A DNA stretch of 35,078 bases from Nitrospinota bacterium (lineage in GTDB: Bacteria; Nitrospinota; Nitrospinia; JACRGO01), in NCBI GenBank assembly GCA_016212295.1, contig JACRGO010000115.1, forward strand, positions 1-35,078, written 5' to 3'. A program made the translations under genes and the position numbers. Shown here piece by piece: positions 1,995-21,006 of this stretch. Under the pieces are notes generated by a model, which worked only from the letters and a program-made list of their open reading frames with translations, did no database searches and was not told where the DNA came from. The stretch's first letter is position 1, and every line of letters starts with the position of its first letter.

Positions 1995-2450
1995 TTAATA
2001 CGCCATTGTTTCCAACTCTATTTTTCCTGTCCCTATATAAAACTTCAGGTTCCTGGGCAAATTTCCTCCTGTTGCCTCCTTATCAATTGCCAAGCCATTG
2101 GCCTGAATGGCCTCCACCGCCGCGTCCCTGATTTTTTTTCCAAAACTGAAAAGAGGATTTGCAGCAACGCCTGCCCCTCCAACAATTTTCACGGACAAGG
2201 ATGAAAGGTCAGCTCCCAATTCCTTCATTTTTTTTAGGAGTACCGGAACTCCGGTTTTTGGGTGAGCCTCCGCCTTGGATTCATCCTTGGATGGAGAAGG
2301 AAGGATGAAGTGGGCCGCGCCTCCAACGTGGTTGGCGCAATCATACACCACCATTGCAATACCCGCCCCGATGGAGCGAACAATTATTACCTCCTTCGGG
2401 TCCTTGCCCGCATGGCACTGTCCTGGTTTCAGTTCGACGTCGTTAGACAT
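1995..2450 (-). CDS. CheD-like protein 1, catalytic cysteine missing
   Basis: The 151 residues align along their length with CheD, the chemoreceptor glutamine deamidase that also binds CheC. The shared segments are the strand-turn before YDCANHVGGAAHFILP, then VPVLLKKMKELGA, VKIVGGAG, FGKKIRDAAVEAI, ATGGN and TGKIELE. In CheD the active site is Thr-Cys-His. Here the aligned residues are Val24, Gly30 and His47, so the nucleophile is absent and deamidation is very unlikely. The fold probably serves as a binding module. It is the first of three such paralogues in the window, each near an HDOD protein and a receiver protein. No strong ribosome site precedes the ATG, which abuts a family B repeat. 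The family assignment is firm; the role in signalling is inference. Confidence 0.85.
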   Translation of the reverse strand: MSNDVELKPGQCHAGKDPKEVIIVRSIGAGIAMVVYDCANHVGGAAHFILPSPSKDESKAEAHPKTGVPVLLKKMKELGADLSSLSVKIVGGAGVAANPLFSFGKKIRDAAVEAIQANGLAIDKEATGGNLPRNLKFYIGTGKIELETMAY

Positions 2451-2472
2451 TGCGTTTACAATTTTAAATGTC

Positions 2473-2592
2473 TTTGATTCAAAATCATTGAAAATTGAAA
2501 ATTGTTAATTTCAAATTGAAAATTTGGAACATTGCATACACGCCTTCTCTATCAATTTGCAATTTTAAATTTGCAATTTACAATTTTCAATG
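2473..2592. repeat. Family B palindromic repeat with loop
   Basis: The left arm CATTGAAAATTGAAAATTG (from 2488) is roughly complementary to the right arm CAATTTGCAATTTTAAATTTG (from 2554). The loop GGAACATTGC...TATCAAT resembles loops of other family B copies at 6068-6188, 7079-7165 and 8661-8764. Confidence 0.75.
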
Positions 2593-2601
2593 TCTCTGGC
2601 A

Positions 2602-2973
2602 TTATTCACCACAGGCTTTCTTACCCTTTTTCTTTGCGGTTGCAACGGATTGCCCAATAATATTACATAGCTGATTACATTCGTCTAAAATTGCATCTAC
2701 CTTGTTTCCTGGAAGTAATTGAGCCTTAATTATAAAACGAAGCCACAAACGAGACTCTCGTAATTCTTTAAGGCAAATGCTCAGTTTATGGCTGAAATCA
2801 GCACGACTTTCAGCCGCGCATCCCTCTTCGTAATTTGGAGACGGAGACGTGCCGCAACGTAACAATTGGCCTCCAATATGAGTTCCTAAACGTGTACTTG
2901 GAAGCGCATCTACAAGCTTTCCTATCCGTACCGCAAAATCCAGCAGTCTATTTGAAAGTTCTTCCGGCGTCAT
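2602..2973 (-). CDS. Four-helix-bundle protein (S23/IVP family)
   Basis: The 123-residue protein shows the family pattern: LLDFAVRIGKLVDALPSTRLG in helix 1, then LLRCGTSPSPNYEEGCAAES, ADFSHKLSICLKELRESRLW and a final helix with DECNQLCNIIGQSVATAKK. It looks intact. It is a different subtype from the copy at 1569-1928 and only distantly similar to it. Family B repeats lie directly on both sides: the full hairpin 2473-2592 on the left and arms from 2981 on the right. No ribosome site is visible before the ATG. It separates CheD-like 1 from HDOD 1, so it probably inserted into the signalling block. Its molecular role is unknown. Confidence 0.85.
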   Translation of the reverse strand: MTPEELSNRLLDFAVRIGKLVDALPSTRLGTHIGGQLLRCGTSPSPNYEEGCAAESRADFSHKLSICLKELRESRLWLRFIIKAQLLPGNKVDAILDECNQLCNIIGQSVATAKKKGKKACGE

Positions 2974-2980
2974 TTTTCAC

Positions 2981-3081
2981 AATCAATTTGCAATTTTAAA
3001 TTTGCAATTTAAAATGCTTTTGACTCAAAAAAATGAAAAACCATTGAAAATTGTCAATTTCAAATTGAAAATTTACAATGC
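2981..3081. repeat. Family B palindromic repeat
   Basis: CAATTTGCAATTTTAAATTTG (2984 onward) is followed by an inverted arm around 3042-3080 (CATTGAAAATTGTCAATTTC). It separates the four-helix-bundle gene from HDOD 1. Confidence 0.7.
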
Positions 3082-3086
3082 CTCTT

Positions 3087-3941
3087 CTACGCAACAAACT
3101 GCTGAACCATATCCTGCGCGGTCAGCACATATTCGGAATAAAGAAGCATGTCTCTTTCGTCAATTTTCAAAAGGGCCATGGCCTTTTCATCTATTGAGTA
3201 ATGCAAACCATCCACGCCAAGTCCAGCCCCCATTCCAAGGCAGACCACGTCGCTTATGTGGATTATGCCGACCAGCTTCTGGTGCTCAACTGGCGCGGAA
3301 CTGGGATTATGGTGGCGTCTGACAGCTTCCACAAGGTCCGCTGGAAAGTTCCACTTCTCGGCTATTTTCCCTCCGATTTCCTGATGGTCGAAGCCCAAGA
3401 CCTCTTTTTCCGCTTGATTGAAATTAATTTTTTTCTCCTTCACCAGCGCCACGATCTCTTCAAAATATGAACCCAGATACCTGGCGCAAATCACTTTTCC
3501 TATATCGTGGATGATTCCCGCAGTGAAGGCCACTTCCTTTAAAGGCTTGGCCTTCAACTCCGCGATGGTCCCGGCCAAAAAGGCGGAAGTAAGCGCGGCT
3601 TCCCATAGTCCGCCAGGACCCATTAAATATTCATCCGTGCCTTTTTTAAGCGTGCCCTGCATTGCGAAGGAGACCACCAGGTTCCGCACGGCCTTCAGCC
3701 CTAGCATGGCAATGGCGTGCTGCGCGGAATCCACTTTTTTCGCCAGCCCGTAATATGGAGAGTTGCAAAGCCGCAGGATGCTGGCTGTCAGGGCCTGGTC
3801 CGCCATGATTATCTCAGCCAAGCTCAAGGCCGAGCTGCCTTCGCTCTCCGCCATATGCAACGCCTTCATTGCAATCGCGGGCAAGGGAGGAAGCTCGTCT
3901 ATGTCATTAACTAAATTTTCCAGGGAAGGCTTTATTGACAT
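3087..3941 (-). CDS. HDOD-domain signalling protein 1
   Basis: The 284-residue protein is one HDOD domain over most of its length. It starts DIDELPPLPAIAMKAL, typical of HDOD, followed by the helical repeat ILRLCNSPYYG and the LGLKAVRNLV segment. HDIGK is retained at about 145-149, with a later RRHHNP. HDOD proteins are HD-superfamily relatives usually considered non-catalytic adaptors in bacterial signal transduction, although an HD pair and later histidines are visible here. A strong AGGAG ribosome site lies 5 bases before the ATG. It is closely similar to HDOD 2 (6216-7070) and less so to HDOD 3 (8776-9633). It ends in VQQFVA, close to VEQFVS of HDOD 2. It is probably cytoplasmic and acts with the neighbouring CheD-like and receiver proteins; no output domain is attached. 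Confidence 0.92.
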   Translation of the reverse strand: MSIKPSLENLVNDIDELPPLPAIAMKALHMAESEGSSALSLAEIIMADQALTASILRLCNSPYYGLAKKVDSAQHAIAMLGLKAVRNLVVSFAMQGTLKKGTDEYLMGPGGLWEAALTSAFLAGTIAELKAKPLKEVAFTAGIIHDIGKVICARYLGSYFEEIVALVKEKKINFNQAEKEVLGFDHQEIGGKIAEKWNFPADLVEAVRRHHNPSSAPVEHQKLVGIIHISDVVCLGMGAGLGVDGLHYSIDEKAMALLKIDERDMLLYSEYVLTAQDMVQQFVA

Positions 3942-3967
3942 GGATGCTCCTAATTAAAAACTCCTGT

Positions 3968-4705
3968 TTAAAAACCATATTGCAAGGCGGCCCTCAAGGT
4001 AAAATCATCACTTACACCGGTAAGTCCGAAAGCGGTTCCCAAGCTGAAGTTAATGTTCCTGGTTACCGCAATATCCAGATTGGGCAGGAGATAGTGGCCC
4101 TGCCTGTTCATAAAGCGCATGTCCCTGGCTTCTCCAAGGGAGCCGTGGAACTCCAGGTTGAAGCCCACCCTGTCGGTTAGCCCGAACATAATGGCGTTGG
4201 CGTAGCCAAGGGTAGGTCCCGCCAGGGGAGTACCGCCGGGCGCGGACAATTCCTTCACTATTATCGGGCCGATAACAATGGAAAACCTTTCAAAATTCTT
4301 TTCAAAAATAGGGCGGAATTCAATGGTGTCCGCGGCGTTCCCGCCTCCGTACATATCCATCTGGTTATTTATTGCCAAGGCAAGTTCAATATTCAATCTG
4401 AAATCCACGAAATATTGGCCCTTTTCAAAAAAGGCAAAATTGAACTCCGTTTTCAGCGCGTTTAATTCGTTTACTTCTCCCGCAAGATAAGCGTAATCGA
4501 AGTAGAGAGACTGGCACCACCATTTCGTGAAGCTATGCTCGATTTCTATCTCGTGCATGAATGGGTTGCCTCCGCTCCTGTCGCCTTCCGGCCCTTGGAT
4601 ATAGTCGAAATTGTAGGTAGCCACCGTCTGCCCCAAATCCGGAAGATCATAGGTGTATAGTTTCAGGTGCCCCGCCTCCACGGAAGATACGGCCAGAAAA
4701 AGCAC
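3968..4705 (-). CDS. Outer-membrane beta-barrel-like protein; start disrupted by a one-base shift
   Basis: The open frame, with a GTG at 4705, gives 245 residues rich in alternating strand-like sequence with many aromatics, ending in LQYGF. A C-terminal phenylalanine is typical of outer-membrane barrels. The N-terminus reads VLFLAVSSVEA, the end of a signal peptide with an A-type cleavage site. The expected beginning is present one frame away: an ATG at 4755-4757 with GGGAG before it gives MK- and then stops, but removing one base yields MKIKKLSGKTLSITG running into the open frame. So either one base was inserted near 4748-4754, or translation starts at a rare codon such as ATT. It lies between receiver 1 and HDOD 1. 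The family is not recognised; the barrel topology is inference. Confidence 0.65.
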   Translation of the reverse strand: MLFLAVSSVEAGHLKLYTYDLPDLGQTVATYNFDYIQGPEGDRSGGNPFMHEIEIEHSFTKWWCQSLYFDYAYLAGEVNELNALKTEFNFAFFEKGQYFVDFRLNIELALAINNQMDMYGGGNAADTIEFRPIFEKNFERFSIVIGPIIVKELSAPGGTPLAGPTLGYANAIMFGLTDRVGFNLEFHGSLGEARDMRFMNRQGHYLLPNLDIAVTRNINFSLGTAFGLTGVSDDFTLRAALQYGF

Positions 4706-4810
4706 CAGAATTCCAGTGATTGATAATGTTTTTCCCGATAATTTCTTAATCTTTCATCTTCTCCCAAAAATTACAATGGCCAGTGGCTAATGACTTCGCA
4801 CAACGGGCGT

Positions 4811-4851
4811 AAATTTTCAATTTACAATTGTCAATTTTAAATTTGCAATTT
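4811..4851. repeat. Family B repeat, single arm
   Basis: AAATTTTCAATTTACAATTG and the following TTTAAATTTGCAATTT are family B words without a clear partner arm. They lie just downstream of receiver gene 1. Confidence 0.6.
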
Positions 4852-4866
4852 CCTTCTTTATCGGCA

Positions 4867-5409
4867 TTACAGCCCCTTGATCTTTATGCATTTATTCTCC
4901 CGCAACTGCCGGGCACGCTCCAAGGCAGCCTTAATACGTTCCGCTTCCTTCTGAATCGTCTCCAGCAGATTTTCAGCGCCTACCTTGTCAAAAAGTTCCG
5001 CCATGAGTTCATTAAGCTTCCATGCCTCATCGAATTTCTCCTTGAGCCTCAGCATACTGCGTACCCTGGCCATCAGGGCCAATTGGTCGCAAGGCTTGAC
5101 AATATATTCGTCAGCTCCTGATTCCGTCAGTCCTCTCTCGATGCTTTCACTTTCCGGCAAGGCGGAAAGAATTATAATGGGAATAAAGGAATCCTTTTCT
5201 ATTTCCCTGATTCGCCGGATGGCCTCAAACCCGTCCATTTCCGGCATCATCAGGTCCATGAGGATCAGATCAAAGGATTCTTTTTTGACCTTTTCCACCG
5301 CATCTTTTCCGTTGAACACGCACACGGTTTCATGCCCGGCTGATTCCATATATCTCTGGACTATTTCATTAAAGTCCACTTCATCATCGACTATCAGTAT
5401 CCTTGCCAT
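4867..5409 (-). CDS. Stand-alone response regulator 1 (receiver plus helical tail)
   Basis: The 180 residues open with a canonical receiver domain: MARILIVDDE with the acidic pair at 8-9, phospho-acceptor Asp52 in LILMDLMMPEMDG, a Ser in IIILSA and the conserved Lys in YIVKPCD. After about residue 125 there is a charged helical tail, probably a coiled coil, without a DNA-binding or enzymatic domain. It would relay phosphorylation by protein contacts. A good AAGGAG site sits 5 bases before the ATG. It belongs to a set of three paralogous receivers (also 7194-7829 and 7988-8620), each near an HDOD and a CheD-like gene. Its tail is shorter than and unlike the other two. No histidine kinase is present in the window, so its phosphodonor must be encoded elsewhere. 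Confidence 0.93.
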   Translation of the reverse strand: MARILIVDDEVDFNEIVQRYMESAGHETVCVFNGKDAVEKVKKESFDLILMDLMMPEMDGFEAIRRIREIEKDSFIPIIILSALPESESIERGLTESGADEYIVKPCDQLALMARVRSMLRLKEKFDEAWKLNELMAELFDKVGAENLLETIQKEAERIKAALERARQLRENKCIKIKGL

Positions 5410-5425
5410 GAATTCTCCTTAGCTG

Positions 5426-5539
5426 AGTGACTAAAGTGAGCTAAAGTTTCAAGTGCTTAAAGTTGTTGAAGTTTTTTTTATTAAAAAGAAACCTACAAAA
5501 ACTTTAGTCACTTTAGTTCACTTGACACTTTAGTCACTT
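5426..5539. repeat. Family A hairpin repeat
   Basis: The left arm AGTGACTAAAGTGAGCTAAA (5426 on) and right arm ending at 5539 (ACTTTAGTCACTT) are imperfect reverse complements around a roughly 35-base loop that begins GTTGTTGAAG. It lies between CheD-like 2 and receiver 1. Confidence 0.8.
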
Positions 5540-5554
5540 GTTTTTAGACTTTAG

Positions 5555-6013
5555 TCAATACGTCACCGTCTGAAGCGCCACTTTTCCTGTGCCAATGGAA
5601 AACTTCACGCTTCTTTTGTGGCTGCCTCCGGTATCCTCCTTGGCCAGGGTCAACCCCACCTCTTTTAGGGCCGCCACCGTAGCGTCTCTGTTTTTTCTGC
5701 CAAAACTTAAAATCGTGGGAGCGTTATGGAGATCCGCTCCTCCGATCATTTTCACGGACAGAGAGGCCGTGTCCGCTCCCAGTTCCTTCATCTTTTTCAG
5801 GAGATTGGGCAAGCCGGCTCCAGGAAAGGTGTCCGCCTTGGAAGTATCTTGGGGCGGCATGGAGATAGTAAACAGGCCCGCGCCCCCGACGCGGTTTTTT
5901 TCGTCATACAAAAGAAGCGCAATACCAACGCCCACGGAATGAATGACGATATCATCCGTTGGAGTCTTGTCGGCAATGCAACGACCGGGTTGTAAAACTA
6001 TTTCTTTATTCAT
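5555..6013 (-). CDS. CheD-like protein 2, whole catalytic triad missing
   Basis: The 152-residue paralogue of CheD-like 1 has the same layout: YDEKNRVGGAG after the first strands, LPNLLKKMKELGAD, VKMIGGAD, FGRKNRDATVAALKEVGL, EDTGG and TGKVALQ. At the positions of the CheD Thr-Cys-His active site it has Ile24, Gly30 and Leu47. All three catalytic residues are lost while the fold residues are kept, which argues for selection as a non-enzymatic binding protein. It starts at ATG 6013 with only a weak GAAG site. It lies downstream of HDOD 2 and upstream of receiver 1, flanked by repeats on both sides. Possible partners are the HDOD or receiver proteins, or a CheC-like protein or chemoreceptors encoded elsewhere. 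Confidence 0.85.
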   Translation of the reverse strand: MNKEIVLQPGRCIADKTPTDDIVIHSVGVGIALLLYDEKNRVGGAGLFTISMPPQDTSKADTFPGAGLPNLLKKMKELGADTASLSVKMIGGADLHNAPTILSFGRKNRDATVAALKEVGLTLAKEDTGGSHKRSVKFSIGTGKVALQTVTY

Positions 6014-6016
6014 GGC

Positions 6017-6188
6017 TTCATCAATTCACAATTTTAAATTTGCAATTTGCAATTTTAAATGCCTTGATTCAAAATCATTGAAAATTGAAAATTGTTAATT
6101 TTAAATTGAAAATTTTAAACATTGAAACATTGCCGCAAGCTGGCTTCATCAATTTACAATTTCAAATTTGCAATTTTCAATTTGAAAT
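6017..6188. repeat. Two adjacent family B repeats
   Basis: A single arm (6023-6060, CAATTCACAATTTTAAATTTG) is followed by a full hairpin 6068-6188. The loop 6118-6152 (AAACATTGAAACATTGCCGC onward) is nearly identical to the loop of the copy at 7079-7165, so HDOD 2 is bracketed by two copies of the same element. Confidence 0.8.
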
Positions 6189-6215
6189 GCTTCGGTTTTC
6201 TCCGCCTCCTCCTCT

Positions 6216-7070
6216 TCACGAAACAAATTGCTCCACTGTCTCCTGCATGCCCAGCACATACTCGAAGTAACTTTCCATGTCCGCTTCCGTGATGCTCAGC
6301 AGCTTAACGGCGTGTTCGTCCATGGGATAATTCAGCCCGTCTCCTCCTATCCCGATCCCCATGCTCAGGCAAATCACGTCGCTGATGTGGATAATGCTGA
6401 CAAGTTTTTGGTGTTCTGCGGGAGCAAAGCCGGGCGAATGATGATGCCTTACTGATTCCACCAGGTCCTCTGGAAATTTCCATTTTTCCGCTATTTTTCC
6501 CCCTATTTCCGCATGGTCAAACCCAATCACCTCTGTTTCGGCCTTGTTGAAGTTGATTTTTTTGTCGTTCACCATATCTACAATCTCATCAAAAAAAGAA
6601 ATCAGGTGCTTGCTGAGCACCACCTTTCCAATATCGTGAATAATGCCGGCGGTAAAGGCTATGTCCTTTAAAGGGCCGGTCTTGTCACGAGCGATCCTGC
6701 CGGCCAGAAAAGCGGAGTTGACGGCGCTCCTCCAAAGGTCGCCTGGACCCAGCAGATATCCATCCGTCCCTTTTTCCAGCTTGTCCTGGACAGCGAAGGA
6801 GACCACCATGTTCCGGATGGCGCTGAACCCCACCAATGCAATGCCTTGCTGCACGGAATCAACCTTCTGGGGTATCCCGTAGTAGGCGGAGTTGCAGAGC
6901 TTCAGCACATTGGCGGTAAGGCCCTGGTCCGTGCGGATTATTTCCGCCAATTCGGACGCGGAACTGCCGTCGCTGCGGACTATTTCCAGGGCCTTCATTG
7001 CCGCCGCGGGCAAGGAAGGAAGCTCGTCGATGTCCCTTACCACTGTATCAAGAGAAAGCTTTTCAGACAT
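6216..7070 (-). CDS. HDOD-domain signalling protein 2
   Basis: A 284-residue HDOD protein, close to HDOD 1 in sequence and length. It begins MSEKLSLDTVVRDIDELPSLP, keeps the CNSAYYG and VGFSAIRNMVVSF segments, GIIHDIGK in the middle and VRHHHSP towards the end, and finishes VEQFVS. I chose the ATG at 7070; the frame is open further upstream to 7163, but those extra residues are translated family B repeat and not part of the domain. There is little ribosome-site signal before 7070. The gene lies between receiver 2 upstream and CheD-like 2 downstream. As in HDOD 1, the HD pair is present but the protein carries no output domain, so it is probably an adaptor. Its partners are inferred from position only. 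Confidence 0.92.
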   Translation of the reverse strand: MSEKLSLDTVVRDIDELPSLPAAAMKALEIVRSDGSSASELAEIIRTDQGLTANVLKLCNSAYYGIPQKVDSVQQGIALVGFSAIRNMVVSFAVQDKLEKGTDGYLLGPGDLWRSAVNSAFLAGRIARDKTGPLKDIAFTAGIIHDIGKVVLSKHLISFFDEIVDMVNDKKINFNKAETEVIGFDHAEIGGKIAEKWKFPEDLVESVRHHHSPGFAPAEHQKLVSIIHISDVICLSMGIGIGGDGLNYPMDEHAVKLLSITEADMESYFEYVLGMQETVEQFVS

Positions 7071-7078
7071 ATAAGAAC

Positions 7079-7165
7079 CATTGAAAATTGAAAATTTTAA
7101 ACATCGAAACATTGCTTGCAAGCTGGCTTCATCAATTTGCAATTTAAAATTTGCAATTTTCAATG
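7079..7165. repeat. Family B hairpin repeat
   Basis: Arms ATTGAAAATTGAAAATTT and CAATTTAAAATTTGCAATTT enclose the loop 7099-7135 (AACATCGAAACATTGCTTGC onward), which matches loop 6118-6152 almost base for base. It sits in the leader of HDOD 2. Confidence 0.8.
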
Positions 7166-7193
7166 CCTTTGACTTCAGACTTCAGACGGCTCT

Positions 7194-7829
7194 TCAAAAT
7201 TCCTCCATCTTCACGTATCTCTTCCTGTAAATCCGGCGGAAATTATCCATTATGTCTATCATCTTCCTGGTTTCCTCCCGTGCGCCCAAGGCAAGACCCA
7301 GGTTAACGGAATCAAATTTTTCCGGCGCGTCCAGCATGCGCTTCAATGCGTTCTCGACACTGGACATAGGCCCTTCCATATTGCCCAGGCATTCGGTCCC
7401 CATCTGGGTAAAGATATCTTCCAGCAGTTCCTTGAGTTCCCTGACGTCATCGAACTCAGCCTTCAGCCGCAGCATGCTCCTGACCCGCGCCATAAGGGAC
7501 AGTCTGTTAAAGGGCTTTGTGATATATTCGTCCGCGCCTGATTCCACCAATCCCTTTTCGATGCCTTGACTTTCCGCCGTGCCGGTAAGAATGATAATGG
7601 GAACAAAAGAGTCCTTTAAAATTTCCCGGATTTTCCTGATGGCCTCAAGCCCGTCCATCCCGGGCATCATCAGGTCCATGAGGATGAGGTCAAAGTGTTC
7701 CTTCCTGGCTTTTTCAACGGCCTCCCTGCCATCAAAGGCCATGTCAGTCTCGTATCCGGAAAATTTCAGTTGGTCCTGAATGGCTTGATTTAATTCCTTT
7801 TCATCATCAACGACAAGTATTTTTCCCAT
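7194..7829 (-). CDS. Stand-alone response regulator 2 with long helical C-terminus
   Basis: The 211-residue protein has a receiver at 1-122: acidic pair 8-9, Asp52 in LILMDLMMPGMDG, Thr in IIILTGT, Lys in YITKPFN. The remaining ~85 residues are helical. In them, LGNMEGPM and the closing RRIYRKRYVKMEEF are shared in pattern with receiver 3 (LGNMRDPL and SQIHRKRYTKVQEL). This tail resembles the dimerisation helices of histidine kinases with the phosphorylatable histidine replaced; that is inference. A strong AAGGAG lies 5 bases before the ATG. It follows receiver 3 and precedes HDOD 2. No output domain is present. It probably works through contacts with partner proteins after phosphorylation by a kinase encoded elsewhere. 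Confidence 0.93.
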   Translation of the reverse strand: MGKILVVDDEKELNQAIQDQLKFSGYETDMAFDGREAVEKARKEHFDLILMDLMMPGMDGLEAIRKIREILKDSFVPIIILTGTAESQGIEKGLVESGADEYITKPFNRLSLMARVRSMLRLKAEFDDVRELKELLEDIFTQMGTECLGNMEGPMSSVENALKRMLDAPEKFDSVNLGLALGAREETRKMIDIMDNFRRIYRKRYVKMEEF

Positions 7830-7843
7830 GGTTTCTCCTTAAC

Positions 7844-7989
7844 AAAGTGACTAAAGTGAGCTAAAGTTTCAAGTGAACTATAGTTGCGGTGGAAAAGCAA
7901 TTTTCTATTTTAAACTTTAGTCACTTTGGTTCACTTGACACTTTAGTCACTTTAGTTCACTTTAGTTCACTTGACACTTTAGTCACTTT
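7844..7989. repeat. Family A hairpin repeat with duplicated right arm
   Basis: The left arm AAAGTGACTAAAGTGAGCTA is complementary to right-arm words ACTTTAGTCACTTTGGTTCA. The right side carries an extra copy of the words, reaching the stop codon of receiver 3. The loop begins GTTGCGGTGGAAAAGC, matching loops in the copies at 17061 and 23862. Confidence 0.8.
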
Positions 7990-8620
7990 ACAACTCCTGG
8001 ACCTTCGTATATCTTTTTCTGTGGATTTGGCTGATGTTCTCAACAATTTCCTCTATCTTTTTCACTTCCCGGCGCATGGAGGCCAGTCCGGCTGAATCAG
8101 GTCCATGACAGCCATTAACGCCACCCAGGGCCTTATTGAGGCGGTCCAGCGGATCTCTCATGTTGCCCAGGCCCTGGGTCACCAGTTTTTTTATTTTGCT
8201 GTTAAAAACCTCAAGAGTTTCCTTTGCCGTCTGGAGTTCGTCGTATTTTTCCTTTAGTCTTAACATGCTGCGGACCCGGGCCTGAAGGGCCGAGCGCTCA
8301 AAAGGCTTATGTAGAAACTCGTCCGCGCCGGCTTCCAGCCATCCCATATCCAAGGTTTCCGTTTCCTCCAGGGTGGATACAATAATTATGGGAATAAAGG
8401 AATCTTGTGTTATTTCCCTGATTTTTTTCGTTGCCTCAAATCCGTCCATTTCCGGCATCTCTATATCCATGAGAATCAGGTCAAATTGCTCCTTTTGAAT
8501 TTTTTTCACCGCCTCCAGACCGTTAAAGACGCCGATGGCTTCATGCCCGATGGCCTTCACGTCCTTTTGCATTCCAAGGTTCATGATTTTGCTGTCATCA
8601 ACGATCAGAATCCTCGCCAT
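7988..8620 (-). CDS. Stand-alone response regulator 3 with long helical C-terminus
   Basis: The 210 residues include a receiver domain: MARILIVDDS with the acidic pair at 8-9, Asp52 in LILMDIEMPEMDG, Ser in IIIVSTL, Lys in FLHKPFE. The helical tail (about 125-210) carries GLGNMRDPLDRLNKAL and ends SQIHRKRYTKVQEL, matching the tail pattern of receiver 2. An AGGAAG ribosome site lies 7 bases before the ATG. It is transcribed after HDOD 3 and before receiver 2. The tail has no recognisable enzymatic or DNA-binding domain. The three receivers are more alike in their first 120 residues than in their tails, consistent with duplication and then diversification of partner choice. Confidence 0.93.
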   Translation of the reverse strand: MARILIVDDSKIMNLGMQKDVKAIGHEAIGVFNGLEAVKKIQKEQFDLILMDIEMPEMDGFEATKKIREITQDSFIPIIIVSTLEETETLDMGWLEAGADEFLHKPFERSALQARVRSMLRLKEKYDELQTAKETLEVFNSKIKKLVTQGLGNMRDPLDRLNKALGGVNGCHGPDSAGLASMRREVKKIEEIVENISQIHRKRYTKVQEL

Positions 8621-8660
8621 GAAAAATCTTCCTGAAAAATAGAGGCTATCGGAAAATCAT

Positions 8661-8764
8661 TCTAAATTGAAAATTGAAAATTGCAAATTGATAAAGCAAG
8701 CTTACGGCAATGTTCCATTGTTTAAAATTTTCAATTTAAAATTAACAATTTTCAATTTTCAATG
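8661..8764. repeat. Family B hairpin repeat (inverted copy)
   Basis: Arms AAATTGAAAATTGAAAATTG and CAATTTTCAATTTTCAATG enclose a loop that, read on the minus strand, gives GGAACATTGCCGTAAGCTTG. This matches the loops at 6118 and 7099 in the opposite orientation. Confidence 0.8.
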
Positions 8765-8775
8765 CCTTTCATTAA

Positions 8776-9633
8776 TCAATTCGTGGAGCTATGCGCCACG
8801 AAATCCTCGATATCCTTCATGCCGGTTTGAAGGTCCAGGATATATTGGTCCAGTTCCGTTTCATTAATGTGCAACACGGCCAGGGCGCTTTCGTCCAATT
8901 CGTAGCTTAGTCCGTCCCCTCCGACCCCTACTCCACAGTTGATGGCTATAATATCCGCCACATGTACTATGGCGGCAAGTTTTTTTCCTATAAGGCTCTT
9001 TCCTGGTTCGTGATGGCATTTGATGGCGTCAACCAAGTCCGCTGGAAATCCCCACTTTTTGGCAAGCTTTCCTCCTGCTTCGGCATGGTCCATTCCAAAT
9101 ATCCTTTTTTCCGCCTCGTTAAAAGCGATATTTTCGGCCTTGACCAGAGACTTGGCCTGATTGAAGGAAGACAACAGAAAACGGCTCAACAGAATCCTGC
9201 CGATGTCATGAACCATGCCGGCGGTAAAGGCGGTATCAACAAGGGTCCTGTCCTTTTTTTTCGCTATGCGGGACGCGATGGCGCCGACGGCGACGCCATG
9301 CCGCCATAATTCCCCTTTATTCATCAGATAGCCGTCAAATGCCTTGTTCATGGATTTCGACAGCTCCGTTGAGAGGGCGATATTCCTTATGCACTGAAAG
9401 CCAAGGAGCGCAACCGCGTGCTTGACGGACGCCACCTTGGTGGTAAGACCGTAAAAAGGGGAATTTACAAGCCTGATGACCTTGGCCGTAAGCCCCTGGT
9501 CCATGCCGATGACCTTTGCCAGGTCATCTCCCGAGGACTTTTCCGTCTCCGTCATTTGCATCAGCTTTACGGCTGAGGACGGCAGACTCTTAATTTCCTC
9601 GGTGGATTCTATTATTTTATCGATTTCATGCAT
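8776..9633 (-). CDS. HDOD-domain signalling protein 3
   Basis: A 285-residue HDOD protein starting MHEIDKIIESTEEIKSLPSS. I chose the ATG at 9633 because AGGAG lies 5 bases upstream; the longer open frame to 9768 only translates a family C repeat. Domain landmarks are VIRLVNSPFYGL, LLGFQCIRNIALS, GMVHDIGR in the middle and IKCHHEPGKS near the end. It is more divergent from HDOD 1 and 2 than they are from each other, and carries HDIGR instead of HDIGK. It lies between CheD-like 3 upstream and receiver 3 downstream, forming the third CheD/HDOD/receiver set. The protein is probably cytoplasmic and non-catalytic. Confidence 0.92.
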   Translation of the reverse strand: MHEIDKIIESTEEIKSLPSSAVKLMQMTETEKSSGDDLAKVIGMDQGLTAKVIRLVNSPFYGLTTKVASVKHAVALLGFQCIRNIALSTELSKSMNKAFDGYLMNKGELWRHGVAVGAIASRIAKKKDRTLVDTAFTAGMVHDIGRILLSRFLLSSFNQAKSLVKAENIAFNEAEKRIFGMDHAEAGGKLAKKWGFPADLVDAIKCHHEPGKSLIGKKLAAIVHVADIIAINCGVGVGGDGLSYELDESALAVLHINETELDQYILDLQTGMKDIEDFVAHSSTN

Positions 9634-9670
9634 GACAACTCCTGAACATAGGGCTTCGCCCCAAGTGTAA

Positions 9671-9775
9671 GAGGGAAGAGTGGAATGATGGAATGTTGGA
9701 AGATTGGGGTTAAAACAAAGTGGTCCATCTTTCCATCTTTCCACCATTCCAATATTCCATTCTTCCACTCTTCCT
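9671..9775. repeat. Family C hairpin repeat
   Basis: The left arm GGAATGATGGAATGTTGGAA and right arm CCATCTTTCCACCATTCC are reverse-complementary in pattern, around a loop with GGTTAAAACAAAG. It lies between CheD-like 3 and HDOD 3. Confidence 0.8.
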
Positions 9776-9781
9776 ATACCT

Positions 9782-10234
9782 TCATTTAGCGATATTTTCT
9801 ATTGTCAGTTTCCCGGTCTTGATATCAAACCGCACGTTTCTTTTATGCGACCCGCCGGTGTCCTCCCCGGCGATGGCCAGCCCCAACTCTCCCAAGACCT
9901 CCCTGGCCTTGGCCACGTTCCTCTTGCCTATGCTGAAGACGCCGGAGGCGATCAAGCAGGAAGCGCCGACGAGTTTCGCCGCTATCCGGTCCTTGGCGGC
10001 CCCTTGCTCTATCAACAGATTGAGCAGCCTTGGAATAGCCGTGGCGGCGAACTGAAGTCCTTCTTCATGTCCTGGAGGCGCCTGTGGCAGCATGATATAG
10101 GCCATCGCGCCAACCGCATTGGTGGGATCGTGCATGGCCACCACAAGGCTCCCGCAAAGGTCCTTCGCGATAATTGTGTCGCCTTCGTCCCTGGATACGT
10201 GAAGCTCTCCTGGATTGATGTTGATTTCAGGCAT
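9782..10234 (-). CDS. CheD-like protein 3, catalytic triad replaced
   Basis: This 150-residue protein is closest of the three to classical CheD: HDPTNAVGAMAYIMLP, IPRLLNLLIEQGA, AKLVGAS, IGKRNVAKAREVLGELGL, EDTGGSHKRNVRFDI and TGKL. Yet the residues at the Thr-Cys-His catalytic positions are Ala23, Ser29 and Tyr46. A serine in place of the nucleophile is not known to support the CheD reaction, and the histidine is also gone. I chose the ATG at 10234 because GAGG lies 6 bases before it; a TTG at 10246 would add four residues. It is the first gene of the signalling block in the direction of transcription. A role as a binding module is inferred from conservation of the fold. Confidence 0.87.
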   Translation of the reverse strand: MPEININPGELHVSRDEGDTIIAKDLCGSLVVAMHDPTNAVGAMAYIMLPQAPPGHEEGLQFAATAIPRLLNLLIEQGAAKDRIAAKLVGASCLIASGVFSIGKRNVAKAREVLGELGLAIAGEDTGGSHKRNVRFDIKTGKLTIENIAK

Positions 10235-10300
10235 ATAAATCCTCAAAAAATTCTATCCAAAAATATTTGAAATTTCTAAAAACTTAAACCAAACAAAATC

Positions 10301-10870: not shown

Positions 10871-12163
10871 CTAGCTTTCCTCCGCCCCGCACTCGCGCTG
10901 CCCCCTCTTTCCAGCCCGCTGTCTCCACGCATCGAATATTTGCCGGTTGGCGTACACTTCCCGTCCGATCATCAAGAGCACGTAGCCGCCAATAAACAAA
11001 GGCTGGTCCCAACCCAGGAGGTCCCAACACAGCCACAAAAAACCGCCGCCAAGGTCCAGGCCGCCCAGCTTGGCCAGGGACCCATCGCGTTCGCTGAGTC
11101 CCTGTCGAATTCGCAGAAAACCGATGGTGGTTTGAACGGCGGCTCCAAAAATCCCCAAACCCCGCGCCAGTGTGCTCGCCACAGCCGACGACGAATACAG
11201 GTACAGCAAGCCTTGAGTTCCCCAGGCCAAGTCACTCCCAGCATCCATCTTCTGGTCCAGTGTCTCGGACCTTCGCAAATCATCAATCGAGGCAACGATA
11301 AGCCCGGCAGCGCCCGCAACGCCCGCCAATTGCAATCCTGTCAGCAGGCTTGATGTCTGAGGTAGAACCGAAACGGTGTCGGCGATACCCAATGCCACGA
11401 AGGATGGAAACCACAGCCGGGTGCTAAATGAAATTTTCCATTGGATGTCATGGAGCCGGCCTTTATCCGCCAGCGCGGCCGTCTTACCGGCAGTCCATTC
11501 GCCGTCCGCCTGTTCCTGGCTCTCCGGCAGCCAGATCGCTTTTTTGAAACACTTTACGGCTTCTTCTCGGTTTCCCATGCTTTCATGGACAAACCCCAGG
11601 CTGTGCAGGGCCTTGACGGAAGTTGGATTGATTTCAATGGCCTTTTGAAGGCTCTTCACCGCAGCATCCCATTTTTCCTGCCTGTCATAAAAAAGCCCCA
11701 GCCTGAAGTGGGCGGAAAAATTATCCGGGTCCATTTCCAATGCTTTCATGAAGGCGTCGCCTGACTTTTTGAAATCGCCTGCCTCCATGTAAAGCGTCCC
11801 CAGTTTCAACCATGCATTTTCATTTTTACTGTCAAGTTTAGAGAGCGTTTCCAGGGTTTCGATGGCATTTTTTTCCTCACCCTCTATCTGTGAGTAAGCC
11901 ACCCCAAGCCGGTACAGGGCATCGGAATTTTTCGGGCCGGAGTTAACAACTTTTTCCAGATAAGGAACAGACTCCTCGTATCTCCCGTTCTTGTAATGCC
12001 TCATCCCCATCTTCAGTTGATAATCGCGCATGGCGCCGTCTTCAACTGAAACCAGGTCCTTATACGATTCAATAGCGCCTTCAGCGGCCTTCTTCAGCAC
12101 ACTGAATCCCATTCTAAAATAAAAACCGGTTTTTTCAATTATGCTCTGATTTTGCGCGTCCAT
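10871..12163 (-). CDS. MamA paralogue: TPR protein fused to a multi-helix membrane domain
   Basis: The first ~210 of 430 residues are about four-fifths identical by eye to the MamA protein at 19530-20183, including KDLVSVEDGAMRDYQLKMGM, the TPR units RYEESVPYLEKV, NAWLKLGTLYMEAGD, AHFRLGLFYDRQEKW and VKCFKKA. After about residue 215 the sequence changes to a ~215-residue extension with hydrophobic segments near 251-268, 273-293, 313-345, 367-384 and 388-402 and many glycines. MamA is a soluble TPR protein that coats magnetosomes; this copy would carry its own membrane anchor. A weak GAG site precedes the ATG. It follows the kinase gene of the vWA/PP2C/kinase set. The origin by duplication of mamA and fusion to another domain is inferred from the sharp end of similarity. 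Confidence 0.85.
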   Translation of the reverse strand: MDAQNQSIIEKTGFYFRMGFSVLKKAAEGAIESYKDLVSVEDGAMRDYQLKMGMRHYKNGRYEESVPYLEKVVNSGPKNSDALYRLGVAYSQIEGEEKNAIETLETLSKLDSKNENAWLKLGTLYMEAGDFKKSGDAFMKALEMDPDNFSAHFRLGLFYDRQEKWDAAVKSLQKAIEINPTSVKALHSLGFVHESMGNREEAVKCFKKAIWLPESQEQADGEWTAGKTAALADKGRLHDIQWKISFSTRLWFPSFVALGIADTVSVLPQTSSLLTGLQLAGVAGAAGLIVASIDDLRRSETLDQKMDAGSDLAWGTQGLLYLYSSSAVASTLARGLGIFGAAVQTTIGFLRIRQGLSERDGSLAKLGGLDLGGGFLWLCWDLLGWDQPLFIGGYVLLMIGREVYANRQIFDAWRQRAGKRGQRECGAEES

Positions 12164-12317: not shown

Positions 12318-13268
12318 CTATCTTTTCAAGAAGGAAAACAGCCTTTCCGCCGCCCCAAGCACGCTATCCCAAATGCCTTTACCCGCCTCCGGCGGATTAA
12401 GGGCCTCGGCAAAGCCGAATAAATTGACGGCAAAATCGTCCAGGAACTTCCACTCGCAGCCGTCTTCCGGGTTTTCCGCCATTTCCTCATGAATATCCTG
12501 CCAGATTTCCTGGGAATTCCTGTCAATGTACTGGCTGGGACCTTCCATCAGTTTGAAAATGTCATTTGGTTTTAAATTAAAAGGATTATCCGGATAGGAA
12601 GTCTTGAAATAAAGGTCGATGGCGAAATATACGAAGGCGGCCTGGGTAACGGTCTTGCCGCTCAAATTCTCGAAATTATCGCGCTCCCTTGCCATTGGGA
12701 CCACGCAGCCCCAATATCTTTCATTGACATTGGTATGGACCCCGCGGTTCCTCAGGAAATCAACAAAATCAGTGGAAGCCGGAAGGCAGCTATCTATATC
12801 AATCAGACAACCCCGGGAGGTCCGGCCGTTTTTATCAAACATGACATTTCTGAAATCAAGGTCTGGATACCAATGGTCCATTTCCAGAATGGTCTGCAAG
12901 GCAAAGAAGACAGACCTCAGTATCTCGTGGCAATCTTCCTTTTTAACCTCCTTTATATTTTCAAGGAGAGGCGCCCCTGGGACCATTTCCATGAAGATGT
13001 AATGAGTAAATACGCCTTCCAACTCATAAAACCCATAGACGTCAGGAATATAGACGCACGGTGAATCCAGGGCGCTTAAATCGCAAAGAAGGTCCCGCGA
13101 GTCAGGCTCCCCTTTATGCCGCTTTATGAAAACCTTGCGGTCGATTTCTGGAAATTTTATTCCCTGATAAGAATATTGGCCGAAGTTCTGGCTCTTCCAG
13201 ACAACTTTACCAGGATCAAAATCAACCGTTACAGGCGCTGTTTTATAAAAAAGTTCTATTTTCATCAT
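12318..13268 (-). CDS. Protein-kinase-like protein of a vWA/PP2C/kinase set
   Basis: The 316 residues show a compact protein-kinase-like pattern: Lys49 in KVFIKRHK, a hinge IFMEMVPG near 91-98, a catalytic-loop equivalent PDLDFRNVMFD with Asp136 and Asn141, and IDIDS (157-159) in place of DFG. The glycine loop is poorly defined. This is the form seen in divergent bacterial kinases. Its start ATGATGA overlaps the stop of the PP2C gene by four bases, so the two are translationally coupled. With the vWA gene at 14897-15979 it makes a trio like TerY-P triads, in which a vWA protein, a PP2C phosphatase and a kinase are co-encoded. No membrane segment is seen. The substrate is unknown; magnetosome proteins are possible by context only. 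Confidence 0.78.
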   Translation of the reverse strand: MMKIELFYKTAPVTVDFDPGKVVWKSQNFGQYSYQGIKFPEIDRKVFIKRHKGEPDSRDLLCDLSALDSPCVYIPDVYGFYELEGVFTHYIFMEMVPGAPLLENIKEVKKEDCHEILRSVFFALQTILEMDHWYPDLDFRNVMFDKNGRTSRGCLIDIDSCLPASTDFVDFLRNRGVHTNVNERYWGCVVPMARERDNFENLSGKTVTQAAFVYFAIDLYFKTSYPDNPFNLKPNDIFKLMEGPSQYIDRNSQEIWQDIHEEMAENPEDGCEWKFLDDFAVNLFGFAEALNPPEAGKGIWDSVLGAAERLFSFLKR

Positions 13269-14218
13269 TCCATATACATAAGATAAAGAATCGCCTTATC
13301 GTCTCCTATATTTTTATCGTACCCCTTGGTAAGGAGCTTTCTGAACCTGAGCAGGTTTTCCTTTTTTCCACCGCTCAGCAGATTAAAGGAGAGGTCGTCG
13401 TTAATAAGTTTTACTCCATCCGATTTAGCCACGACAAACTCCACATCCTCGTAGGAGCGTTCCTTATATTTCGGCGCTGGAAAGACCAGCTTCATTTCTT
13501 CTTTCTTGTCGCATGAAATCAATTGGACAAAAAGCCTCTCCCTGTGGCTGTTAAGGCGGCGCATGGAATTTTCCTTGGTCTTTATGGCAACGTCGATATC
13601 GCCGATCTTGACCAGGTCCAGGGAACGGCCCTTGTGTCCGAGGACCCCTGCGCAGAAGGTGGCGGAGAAGTTAAGCAGGTGGCCGGACTTATTATTTTTC
13701 GGGTCATTATATGGCGCCAGGGCCTTTCTTGCCTGTTCCCGGTTTTCTTCCTTGGCTATGAAAAAACCGAATTCCTTTTCCCATGCCTGGGACAACCGCT
13801 TCCATGCGTCGTTGAAAATGGAAACAATCTGGAGAGGAGGGACGCTATCCGCTGAGGAAGCCTTGTCCGCGCCTTCCTCCATCGTAAGCCGTCTTAATAA
13901 AGGAGAAGGCGGGGGAAAGGATGCCTGGTCCTCATCCACGATTTTTTTTGGGGAGCGCCTGCCATTGTTATCAAAAAAATGGTTTTCCAGGCAGCTCTCA
14001 ATGAAGTAATACCCAAGAGAGTTGGCCAGGCAACGGGAAGAAAAAGGTCCTATGCCGGCCTCGTCGCTTGTGCCGTCCGCGAGAAAAAAAATAGCTCCGC
14101 CATCAAGGAAGTGAATGCCGGCGGCGTCCTCGCAAAGCTCGTCTTCCCTGAGCCCATGCCTTCTGCCCCCGGCGAACAGGACCTCGGCGAATAGGTGGTT
14201 AGTGTGCATTGGGAACAT
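13265..14218 (-). CDS. PP2C-like protein phosphatase of the same set
   Basis: The 317-residue product matches PP2C landmarks in order: CEDAAG near residue 29 for the first metal aspartate, FFLADGTSDEAGIGPFSS near 44-61, FSATFCAGVLGHKG, VKIGDIDVAI with the GD motif, VVAKSDGV and a closing GDDKAILYLMY. PP2C enzymes remove phosphate from serine and threonine using two metal ions. An insert of about 80 residues (80-170) containing PPPSPLLRRL separates the early motifs from the rest. Start choice is uncertain: ATG codons at 14218 and 14209 both lack a clear ribosome site and abut a family C repeat. It is coupled to the downstream kinase, which it probably counteracts. Confidence 0.8.
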   Translation of the reverse strand: MFPMHTNHLFAEVLFAGGRRHGLREDELCEDAAGIHFLDGGAIFFLADGTSDEAGIGPFSSRCLANSLGYYFIESCLENHFFDNNGRRSPKKIVDEDQASFPPPSPLLRRLTMEEGADKASSADSVPPLQIVSIFNDAWKRLSQAWEKEFGFFIAKEENREQARKALAPYNDPKNNKSGHLLNFSATFCAGVLGHKGRSLDLVKIGDIDVAIKTKENSMRRLNSHRERLFVQLISCDKKEEMKLVFPAPKYKERSYEDVEFVVAKSDGVKLINDDLSFNLLSGGKKENLLRFRKLLTKGYDKNIGDDKAILYLMYME

Positions 14219-14223
14219 GGTAT

Positions 14224-14870
14224 AGTGGAAGAATGGAATGATGGAACACTGGAATAATGGAATAGTGGGGTTTTCGGTTTTCTGTGGTGTATAATATTTT
14301 TAGTGAGTAGTACATTTTCTCCGTTTTCCTTGAAAATTCTTAATATTTTATGGACCGTAAAAATATTAATAGGGGTTTTAAAAAGCTTCGCGTATGGGAA
14401 GACGCGATTGCCCTTTATGCCTTGGCTTTCAAAACATTTTCCAGTTTCCCATTCGAGCTAAAGAAGATAGCCGGCAACAGCATTGATGCTGCTCACAGCA
14501 TTTCAAGAAACATTGCGGAAGGATTTTGCCGCCGCAGTTTGAAAGAATACTTAAATCATTTAAATATTGCCTTGGGCTCCTGCGGGGAATTCCATTCCTG
14601 TTACCTAAGTTTTAAAAAAGCCGACCAAATAACCACAGAAGAATTCGAAAAATTAGACCAGCTTCATTATAAAGTTGAGAATGAACTCCTTAAACTGATT
14701 GAATCCCTGCAAAAGAAACAACAAAACGGAAAATGGGAAGAAAATTTTTATTCCAAATCCCAAAAAACCTGATCCGCCATCACGCTTTCCAATCTTCCAT
14801 TATTCCATCATTCCAATCTTCCATTATTCCAATCTTCCATTATTCCAATCTTCCATCATTCCACTATTCC
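14224..14870. mobile_element. Family C inverted arms enclosing a plus-strand four-helix-bundle gene
   Basis: The left arm 14224-14270 (GGAAGAATGGAATGATGGAA) and right arm 14783-14870 (TTCCATTATTCCATCATTCC, expanded by tandem copies) are inverted relative to one another. The gene between runs opposite to its neighbours. This matches the arrangement at 1531-1985 but with different arm sequence. It splits the vWA gene from its PP2C partner. Confidence 0.55.
14350..14772 (+). CDS. Four-helix-bundle protein (S23/IVP family)
   Basis: The 140-residue product begins MDRKNINRGFKKLRVWEDAI and has the family core: FSSFPFELKKIAGNSIDAAHSI, SRNIAEGFCRRSLKEYLNHLNIALGSCGEF and a final helix around KLDQLHYKVENELLKLIESL. 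The motif SRNIAEG and LKEYL..LNIALGS are very typical. It is intact and of normal length, with a lysine-rich tail after residue 115. It is one of few plus-strand genes and lies within family C inverted repeats between the vWA and PP2C genes. The start at 14350 follows an AT-rich stretch with no strong ribosome site. The molecular role is unknown. Confidence 0.88.
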   Translation: MDRKNINRGFKKLRVWEDAIALYALAFKTFSSFPFELKKIAGNSIDAAHSISRNIAEGFCRRSLKEYLNHLNIALGSCGEFHSCYLSFKKADQITTEEFEKLDQLHYKVENELLKLIESLQKKQQNGKWEENFYSKSQKT

Positions 14871-17147: not shown

Positions 17148-18122
17148 TTATTGAACATCCATTTCACGTTTAGCGGGCCGCTGCCAGCCCTTGAATCTTT
17201 TTCCCAAAAAGGACAACACCTTTTTTTTCTCCCGCGCTTCCTGCTGAATGTATGGCGCAAGGCATACGTGCAGATCTTCCTCGTTGAGATTCTCCATCTC
17301 CTCAGCCACCTTTTCCCGGATAATTTCCTTGATTTTGTCCCCTTCACTGACAGTCAATCCCGCATCGATTGCGCACTCCAGATCAACGATCATATTTTCC
17401 CCGCCAGACCTGGCCCTGAGGTTAGTAACGTCGCGCACTTCCGGAATCCGCAAGGCGGCCTGGTAAATTTTTTTCAATTCGTCCAGGTCCGGCGAGGAGT
17501 CCATCAGTCCCTTGATAGCCTCCCAATTCAATTCAAGGCCGATTTTAAGAACCACGAGAGCGACGCAGATGGCGGCCAGGGCATCGCATACAGGATAACC
17601 AATCAAGGCGCCGATGAGCCCTATAAGGACCCCAACCGAGGAAAAAGCGTCCGACCGGTTGTCCCACGCATTGGCCATGATGGACGGGCTGTTCAACTCC
17701 TTGCCGACGCAGCTCTGATAACGGTAAATCAATTCGTTGACCGAGATTGATACAATGGCTCCCAGGAGGGCGATTGCCTTCGGCGGCTCTATATTGCCGG
17801 CCATAATCGACTTCAGGGCGTTCACCAGGATTTCCAGGCCGCCAATTATGAGGAGCAGGCCGATAAGGGAAGACGCGAAATATTGCACCTTGCCGTGGCC
17901 GTAAGGGTGGCATTTGTCCTTGGGCCTGGAGGATATTTTCAGGCTAGTCATGGTGATGATGTTGGCTATGATGTCCGCCGCGGAATGCGCCGCGTCAGCC
18001 ACAAGGGCCGCGCTGCCGCTCAAAAACGCGAGGCTTCCCTTGAAGAGCACTAGCCAGGCATTAATCCCGGTGGCCAGCCAGACAACCTCGTGCCTGCAAT
18101 CCTCGCAATATTCGTATTTCAT
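17148..18122 (-). CDS. mamB: Magnetosome cation-diffusion-facilitator MamB
   Basis: The 324-residue protein begins MKYEYCEDCRHEVVWLATGI, the CxxC-containing start typical of MamB. It continues as a CDF transporter: GSAALVADAAHSAADIIAN with His46 and Asp50, PYGHGKVQY, and NSPSIMANAWDNRSDAF with Asp154 and Asp158 as the second half of the transport site. The cytosolic C-terminal domain follows (IPEVRDVTNLRARSGGENMI). The last ~40 residues are a basic tail longer than usual. MamB moves iron into the vesicle together with MamM and also initiates magnetosome membrane formation. It is the last recognised mam gene of the cluster in transcription order, after mamR. Family A repeats lie just beyond its stop. 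Confidence 0.96.
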   Translation of the reverse strand: MKYEYCEDCRHEVVWLATGINAWLVLFKGSLAFLSGSAALVADAAHSAADIIANIITMTSLKISSRPKDKCHPYGHGKVQYFASSLIGLLLIIGGLEILVNALKSIMAGNIEPPKAIALLGAIVSISVNELIYRYQSCVGKELNSPSIMANAWDNRSDAFSSVGVLIGLIGALIGYPVCDALAAICVALVVLKIGLELNWEAIKGLMDSSPDLDELKKIYQAALRIPEVRDVTNLRARSGGENMIVDLECAIDAGLTVSEGDKIKEIIREKVAEEMENLNEEDLHVCLAPYIQQEAREKKKVLSFLGKRFKGWQRPAKREMDVQ

Positions 18123-18174
18123 TGACCGTTATTTGTTTAATTGTATTGAACCACTAATTTTTTTTAAAATCATT

Positions 18175-18429
18175 TCAATTCCCGCTTAAATAATCCAGCA
18201 GGCTTTTTCCCGGTATTCTGTACTGGCCGTTAAGTTTCCTGGCCTGGATTTTCCCGGACTTGATCAAGCGGATTACCTCTTCCCTGCTGATGCTAAGCGC
18301 CTTGGACGCTTCTTCCGTGTCGTAGATCCTGGCGCCGTGGATTTCCTGGGTTCCAAGCAATCTAGCCACTTCCATCCCCAGCACCAGGGTGGAAAAGATC
18401 GCGCTCACTCTGAGTATAATCGGCCACAT
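18175..18429 (-). CDS. mamR: MamR-like protein: membrane helix plus excisionase-type helix-turn-helix
   Basis: About 84 residues. The N-terminus WPIILRVSAIFSTLVLGMEV is hydrophobic. Then IYDTEEASKALSISREEVIRL and IKSGKIQARKLNGQYRIPG form a winged helix-turn-helix of the excisionase/MerR type. MamR of magnetotactic bacteria is a small protein annotated with this fold and lies between mamQ and mamB, exactly as here; it affects crystal size and number. I used ATG at 18429; a GTG at 18438 is also possible and neither has a good ribosome site. Whether it binds DNA is unclear because of the membrane-like N-terminus. The symbol rests on fold plus position. Confidence 0.75.
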   Translation of the reverse strand: MWPIILRVSAIFSTLVLGMEVARLLGTQEIHGARIYDTEEASKALSISREEVIRLIKSGKIQARKLNGQYRIPGKSLLDYLSGN

Positions 18430-18524
18430 AAAAAACACATTTCAGATTTCAAATTTGAAATTTCAGATTTTGGATTTTGGAATCAAGGAACCACGAGGCT
18501 TTTCCCGCCATGCCATCCTCCACG

Positions 18525-18595
18525 TCATTCCAATCTTCCATCATTCCATTTTCTCTTCTTCCACCCTTCCAATCTTCCTGCATTCAAATATTCCC
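18525..18595. repeat. Family C repeat, single arm
   Basis: TCATTCCAATCTTCCATCAT words run across the gap between mamR and mamQ, next to an AT-rich hairpin (TTCAGATTTCAAATTTGAAA, 18440-18460). No opposite arm is evident. Confidence 0.65.
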
Positions 18596-18612
18596 TTCTT
18601 TCTCCTTTGCCT

Positions 18613-19371: not shown

Positions 19372-19389
19372 AAGTTCTCCTTAAGAAAA

Positions 19390-19520
19390 CATGGAATAGT
19401 AGCGTATTGGAATAATGGAATGTTGGAATATTGTAATGATGCTCAAAAAAATTCTCCATCATTCCGCCTTTTTCATCATTCCACTATTCCTCTTCATCCT
19501 TCCAATCTTCCATCATTCCG
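19390..19520. repeat. Family C hairpin repeat
   Basis: GGAATAATGGAATGTTGGAA pairs with the words TCATTCCACTATTCC on the right. The loop GATGCTCAAAAAAATTCTCC resembles loops at 22846 and 28440. It separates mamA from mamQ. Confidence 0.8.
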
Positions 19521-19529
19521 TTGTTTTCT

Positions 19530-21004: not shown

Positions 21005-21006
21005 AA

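Follow-up and report, generated by a model that had tools for sequence, protein, structure and literature searches.

The window analyzed here is contig C70 (35,078 nucleotides) of a 3.74 Mb Nitrospinota genome in 237 contigs. Between positions 1995 and 10234, beside a magnetosome gene cluster, its minus strand encodes three CheD-fold proteins, three HDOD proteins and three receiver proteins. Our favored explanation, to which we give a somewhat less than even chance (about 0.45), is that these genes are three diverged copies of one signaling module in which the HDOD protein would serve as a CheC-like partner and CheD would only bind. An initial annotation made from the sequence alone had already assigned the nine genes to these families, and Pfam searches confirmed the assignments.

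The CheD-like proteins keep the family fold and lose the catalytic residues. CheD1, CheD2 and CheD3 score 57, 65 and 83 bits against the 25-bit cut-off of Pfam PF03975, and 71-98 bits against the NCBIfam CheD equivalog, whose cut-off is 240 bits. We aligned them to Thermotoga maritima CheD (2f9z_C) at the Thr, Cys and His positions, which we take to be the catalytic triad. These positions hold Val-Gly-His in CheD1 (1995-2450; Pfam E 2.5e-15), Ile-Gly-Leu in CheD2 (5555-6013; E 9.4e-18) and Ala-Ser-Tyr in CheD3 (9782-10234; E 2.1e-23), and CheD3 still matches 2f9z_C at 4.6e-22. For CheD2, in which all three triad residues are replaced, the AlphaFold2 model (pLDDT 82) aligns to 2f9z_C with a TM score of 0.87 and an rmsd of 2.1. 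The family matches, the alignment and the model thus uphold the earlier claim of a CheD fold without its Cys nucleophile. With Gly, Gly and Ser in place of the catalytic Cys, the three proteins are predicted not to be glutamine deamidases. Because the nucleophile is lost, only the binding function of CheD would remain, which supports the binding role proposed in the initial annotation. Three further CheDs in the same genome, on C12, C125 and C148, all have the Cys and the His; the one on C12 adjoins CheA and the one on C148 adjoins CheB. Below, we call CheDs that keep the Cys live and those that have lost it dead.

The HDOD proteins score 188-202 bits against the 22.9-bit cut-off of PF08668 (E 7e-60 to 2e-55). 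Their H...HD...D metal site is complete in HDOD3 (8776-9633; Pfam HDOD E 1.2e-57); in residue alignments the first His is Ala in HDOD1 (3087-3941) and Ser in HDOD2 (6216-7070). The receivers match Response_reg with E values of 9e-24, for REC3 (7988-8620), to 5e-28, and REC1 (4867-5409), REC2 (7194-7829) and REC3 all carry D8, D9, D52 and K105, the acidic pocket, phospho-acceptor Asp and Lys of a receiver. Because these residues are retained, the receivers should be phosphorylatable in principle. They had been described as stand-alone receivers, but none consists of a CheY alone: all three extend into a C-terminal tail of about 55-90 residues, shorter in REC1. In a model of REC2 (pLDDT 78) the tail forms helices at residues 109-142, 148-167 and 174-210. 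Structures in the Protein Data Bank (PDB) that resemble most of this model include PorX and EutV, which likewise consist of a receiver plus helices.

The three sets are related to different degrees. Sets 1 and 2 share 51% identity in CheD, 65% in HDOD and 53% in the receiver, compared with 30-31%, 41% and 48-50% for the same families against set 3. The HDOD tree places the window sets as ((1,2),3) with supports of 100/97 and 100/99. A careful CheD tree recovers the same order and unites the window CheDs in one group (93/92 and 100/100), while a larger, quick tree leaves CheD3 unresolved near the base. The DNA upstream of CheD1 and CheD2 is 84% alike over 85 nt. From the tree order, the identities and this shared upstream DNA, we conclude that sets 1 and 2 duplicated as blocks. 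The grouping of the window CheDs does not support the idea that the Cys was lost independently in three paralogues, and we rejected three losses as the simplest account. A single loss before the three copies arose is the simpler reading and the one that the trees favor.

To place these proteins in context, we surveyed CheD genes in the genomes of chosen relatives and in a domain-wide sample. The survey holds 163 CheD rows, and the search profiles behind them derive from the window CheDs and, in part, from dead CheDs. Removal of both pieces of a broken CheD (L124) leaves 161 usable CheDs; a short fragment (G107:C323) was left out of the survey. Because frames were read between stop codons, the lengths given outside the window are maxima. 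Three genomes of one family, f78, came from a targeted search of its phylum, and the counts are therefore not independent. The Cys is kept in 145 of the 161 CheDs and lost in 16. Twelve of these 16 dead CheDs have an HDOD gene on their own strand no more than 700 bp away. Three of them are the window copies, five belong to f78 and the other four to family f159, in which two genomes carry two apiece. At a limit of 300 bp, an HDOD gene accompanies 11 of 16 dead CheDs, compared with 20 of 145 live ones; window set 1, whose HDOD lies 586 bp from CheD, counts as linked only at the wider limit.

The initial annotation had asked whether dead CheD and HDOD are neighbors in other genomes, and had taken a lack of such neighbors as refuting its idea. 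This check did not refute it: a dead CheD lies directly upstream of an HDOD gene in both f159 genomes and all five f78 genomes examined, in two other phyla, each with few genomes examined. CheD-HDOD pairing is thus well supported at the level of genomics, and its recurrence with dead CheDs in these phyla suggests that CheD can act purely as a binding protein. The four f159 partners, like HDOD3, retain the HD residues (the last position being Asp or Asn), and the five f78 partners are without most of the HD site. Judged from these residues, the unit overall tends toward loss of catalytic residues with the pairing retained. Closer CheD relatives within the phylum were sought in its other 76 genomes, and none came near the score of the window group. 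A contig scan with query A1 covered 158 stretches and returned no relative. A second, with query A5, returned five loci, four of which are in the survey and have live CheDs; the fifth, L027, matches a contig of G011, whose CheD is live. In the phylum of G335, 9 of 74 genomes have CheD, and no score among them resembles those of the dead group; apart from the loci of G335 and G198, these CheDs lie outside the survey.

The CheD-like proteins might still hydrolyze an amide or ester by means of another residue. In CheD3 a Ser stands where the nucleophile would be and a Cys precedes it by two residues, and CheD1 and CheD2 both have a Cys at position 12. In several dead CheDs elsewhere (L101, L102 and those of f78), a Cys lies four residues ahead of the His at the catalytic position; it is a possible alternative nucleophile and is absent from the window copies. 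However, among the dead CheDs linked to HDOD the Cys has become Gly in 11 of 12, an alternative Cys common to all of them is missing, and the His is lost in CheD2 and CheD3. We consider catalysis of this kind highly improbable.

The same three gene families also recur side by side in chemotaxis operons, where the CheD is live; the cross-phylum survey has this gene order in 13 families. In all 20 live HDOD-linked cases CheD immediately precedes HDOD and shares its strand, and in 16 of them the next open reading frame (ORF) after HDOD bears a receiver (13 receivers and 3 CheBs). Window set 3 has this cheD-hdod-cheY order; sets 1 and 2 are reversed. CheA or CheC lies within 7 kb of 12 of the 20 live HDOD-linked CheDs and of none of 11 dead ones. 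One genome carries a natural fusion of a live CheD to HDOD (459 residues; L221:13836-15212), which sits just upstream of genes resembling the flagellar rod genes flgB and flgC. CheD-receiver fusions are present in nine surveyed ORFs (L141, L123, L162 and others), two of them in the window genome.

Does HDOD stand in for CheC? Yuan et al. (PMC3513319) report that a Met-Phe pair at the CheC interface of CheD is conserved where a species has CheC but not where CheC is missing. The same article describes the deamidase activity of Bacillus subtilis CheD as minor and its binding as major, and puts the gain in CheC-CheD affinity from CheY-P at more than sevenfold. In our survey the Met-Phe pair is present in 37 of 46 live CheC-linked CheDs and in 14 of 80 live CheDs with neither neighbor. 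It is absent from all 20 live HDOD-linked CheDs, two of which also have CheC nearby, and from all 12 dead ones; in the window CheDs these positions read Val-Ala, Leu-His and Leu-Ile. CheC itself was not found in the window, so a CheC-dependent CheD is not indicated there. More broadly, 2 of 32 HDOD-linked CheDs have CheC within 7 kb, compared with 47 of 129 others. These patterns make it plausible that HDOD takes the place of CheC as the partner of CheD.

Under our favored explanation, the module would derive from the cheD-hdod-cheY unit found in chemotaxis operons, or both would go back to one ancestor. The HDOD of that unit would correspond to the CheC of Bacillus and Thermotoga, and the phosphorylated receiver would govern its grip on CheD. 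In the present branch the module would have left the chemotaxis operon and CheD would have lost its nucleophile, most simply once before triplication. An upstream kinase would phosphorylate the receiver, the phosphorylated receiver would act on HDOD, and HDOD would bind or release the dead CheD. Once free, dead CheD could occupy the glutamine-bearing helix of a target without deamidating it. We infer the direct binding of CheD to HDOD by the window proteins, its control by the receiver, the kinase and the target, which could be chemoreceptors or a magnetosome protein. A bolder version, which we hold only tentatively and think doubtful, is a CheA-independent partner-switching module with dead CheD as its output and HDOD as a phosphorylation-tuned anchor, working outside chemotaxis in at least three phyla and tripled here beside a magnetosome cluster. 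If it is true, partnering CheD in the manner of CheC would be a general role of HDOD domains.

Several observations weigh against the favored explanation. All nine dead pairs outside the window are without a receiver within 3 kb, and receiver control is therefore not general. The window receivers themselves score best as PleD- and MtrA-type receivers, not as CheY. Four dead CheDs have no HDOD, and three of these belong to che clusters or their surroundings; the Cys is therefore lost without HDOD too. Neither the loss of Met-Phe nor the loss of Cys is significantly associated with HDOD linkage once relatedness is corrected for, in tests that have four independent pairs on supported branches and hence no power. 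Finally, a single clade of all HDOD-linked CheDs, live and dead, is rejected by the approximately unbiased (AU) test (p about 1e-57). The tree therefore does not show the dead modules descending from che cassettes, and CheD-HDOD pairing may have arisen more than once.

For the dead HDOD-linked CheDs, the AU test does not discriminate between one origin and two (p 0.345). In a quick HDOD tree, the 12 dead-linked HDODs fall together with four unlinked f78 HDODs (SH-aLRT 90). A careful tree keeps the window and f159 HDODs together (74/90) and places the f78 partners with f78's own HDODs. Bootstraps of the careful CheD and HDOD trees are not fully settled, and the HDOD trees omit the two halves of a split HDOD (L084) and domains under 150 residues.

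Dead CheDs could also work without an HDOD complex, by competing in trans with live CheDs on chemoreceptor arrays while HDOD and the receiver set their level or location. The genome does have three live CheDs, two of them CheD-receiver fusions and two of the three beside CheA or CheB, and CheD1 retains the His and most of the fold motifs. We nevertheless find such competition fairly unlikely, given the tight coupling of dead CheD to HDOD in three phyla, the existence of a live CheD-HDOD fusion and the position of the dead HDOD-linked modules outside che clusters. Loss of the Cys within a chemotaxis cluster can be seen in the sister genome G001, where one of the four dead CheDs that have no HDOD (L112, G001:C247) adjoins CheB and reads LGSG and its counterpart in the window genome (L115, G000:C148) reads LGSC. 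The two are closely related and belong to one genus, and their sequences indicate a recent loss.

The block was first described as a repeated 3 x 3 array. All nine genes are there, but the layouts of the sets are unlike. In the direction of transcription the order is CheD3, HDOD3, REC3, REC2, HDOD2, CheD2, REC1, a 245-residue ORF, HDOD1, a 23S_rRNA_IVP gene and CheD1. CheD thus leads in set 3 (CheD-HDOD-REC) and comes last in sets 2 and 1 (REC-HDOD-CheD). Set 1 is in addition broken up by the 245-residue ORF (3968-4705), which matches no Pfam family above cut-off, and by the four-helix 23S_rRNA_IVP gene (2602-2973; Pfam 7.5e-15). Two more 23S_rRNA_IVP genes, at 1569-1928 and 14350-14772, bring the number to three over 13 kb. 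The Pfam-matched ORFs of CheD3 (9782-10246), HDOD3 (8776-9768) and HDOD2 (6216-7163) run longer than the genes given above. Their real starts are likely the ATGs at 10234, 9633 and 7070, preferred because each has a better ribosome site or avoids repeats.

Copies of the repeat ACTTTAGTCACTTTAG lie at the outer end of set 1 (1937-1991), between sets 1 and 2 (5483-5546) and between sets 2 and 3 (7904-7991). We rejected these as duplication joints: copies also occur between magnetosome genes and on contig C148, and the repeat is therefore an interspersed family. AT-rich interspersed repeats of the CAATTTGCAATTT type, spread over 2438-8787, occur in most of the intergenic gaps of the block, and the first possible start of HDOD2 falls within one of them. 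Repeat families that bound the sets, and an IVP gene inside set 1, are what one might expect of decaying paralogues spread by repeat-mediated duplication and now without function. Yet the nine frames are intact, their family scores are strong despite 30-65% identity between copies, and dead CheD-HDOD pairs persist in all seven examined genomes of the two other phyla. To decay we assign the smallest chance of any explanation considered.

Directly upstream of the block lies a gene for a MamA-like TPR protein (10871-12163, minus strand), which reaches 161 bits against NCBIfam MamA, below its 200-bit cut-off. The magnetosome cluster follows at 17148-29670, also on the minus strand, with MamB, MamQ, MamA, MamP, MamO-TauE-like, MamM, MamE-like and MamK; the names MamO-TauE-like and MamE-like were assigned from domain content. 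Between the MamA-like gene and the cluster (12318-14218) are a weakly kinase-like and a PP2C-like gene, a possible phosphorylation pair. Magnetosome clusters are known in Nitrospinota (PMC7602337, PMC9376291), and the sections of those papers on the clusters leave chemotaxis genes unmentioned.

This setting raises the possibility that the block is a magnetosome-specific system, coupling the state or position of magnetosomes to taxis. It begins about 0.6 kb downstream of the MamA-like gene, on the same strand as the cluster, and sister genome G001, which is 99% complete, has neither triads nor magnetochrome matches. Against this stand the other genomes. Three of the phylum's 77 genomes contain magnetochrome. 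Besides the window genome these are G051 and G056, and neither of the two has a CheD match. The seven other genomes with dead CheD-HDOD pairs gave no magnetochrome match, in a search without a positive control among its genomes. The block does not accompany magnetosome clusters across genomes, as a mam gene would, and support for a magnetosome role consists of co-location in one genome. The magnetosome link drawn in the initial annotation therefore goes no further than that co-location. From the genomes surveyed, the CheD-HDOD association is not magnetosome-specific, and we judge a dedicated magnetosome system unlikely.

HDOD domains are widespread, and their mechanistic role is described as not established (PMC6543031). 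A conserved CheD-HDOD partnership, fused in one case, would give them a concrete and testable partner. A long-standing issue in chemotaxis is whether catalysis or binding is what makes CheD important, and the dead branch, in which CheD is kept with HDOD in three phyla after its nucleophile is gone, offers a natural experiment on it. The claim that no such system had been described holds in part. We found no description of a CheD-HDOD pair in the literature searched, a search that left most subscription papers outside, but the live CheD-HDOD-receiver unit is common in che operons, and an HD-domain protein was already noted in Geobacter che clusters (PMC2577667). As far as the searched literature goes, the dead-CheD branch is new, as a variant of CheD signaling and not as a categorically new system.

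The closest known system is the CheC-CheD-CheY-P complex of B. subtilis and T. maritima (PDB 2f9z), which shares with the window a CheD fold (TM 0.87), a receiver in the unit and, according to PMC3513319, a CheD whose binding outweighs its catalysis. The window differs in having HDOD and not CheC, in the lost Cys, in being without the Met-Phe pair and in having no adjoining CheA. The cheD-hdod-cheY chemotaxis operons contain the same three families, in the same order as set 3. The CheDs of those operons retain both Cys and His and usually have cheB or cheA in the neighborhood, and most receivers there are about 130-160 residues long; in the window CheD is dead, che genes are absent and the receivers are tailed. 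The group-alpha che clusters of Geobacter likewise place a stand-alone HD-domain protein in a chemotaxis-type cluster, although their account in PMC2577667, compared here by description only, names neither HDOD nor a pairing with CheD. SadB (PMC6543031) and PSPTO_4229 (PMC11813219) resemble the window HDODs as HDOD proteins without known enzymatic activity that act on motility. SadB differs in having an extra YbaK-like domain and, per its paper, in binding c-di-GMP, and the parts of the two reports that deal with these proteins mention no CheD partner for either.

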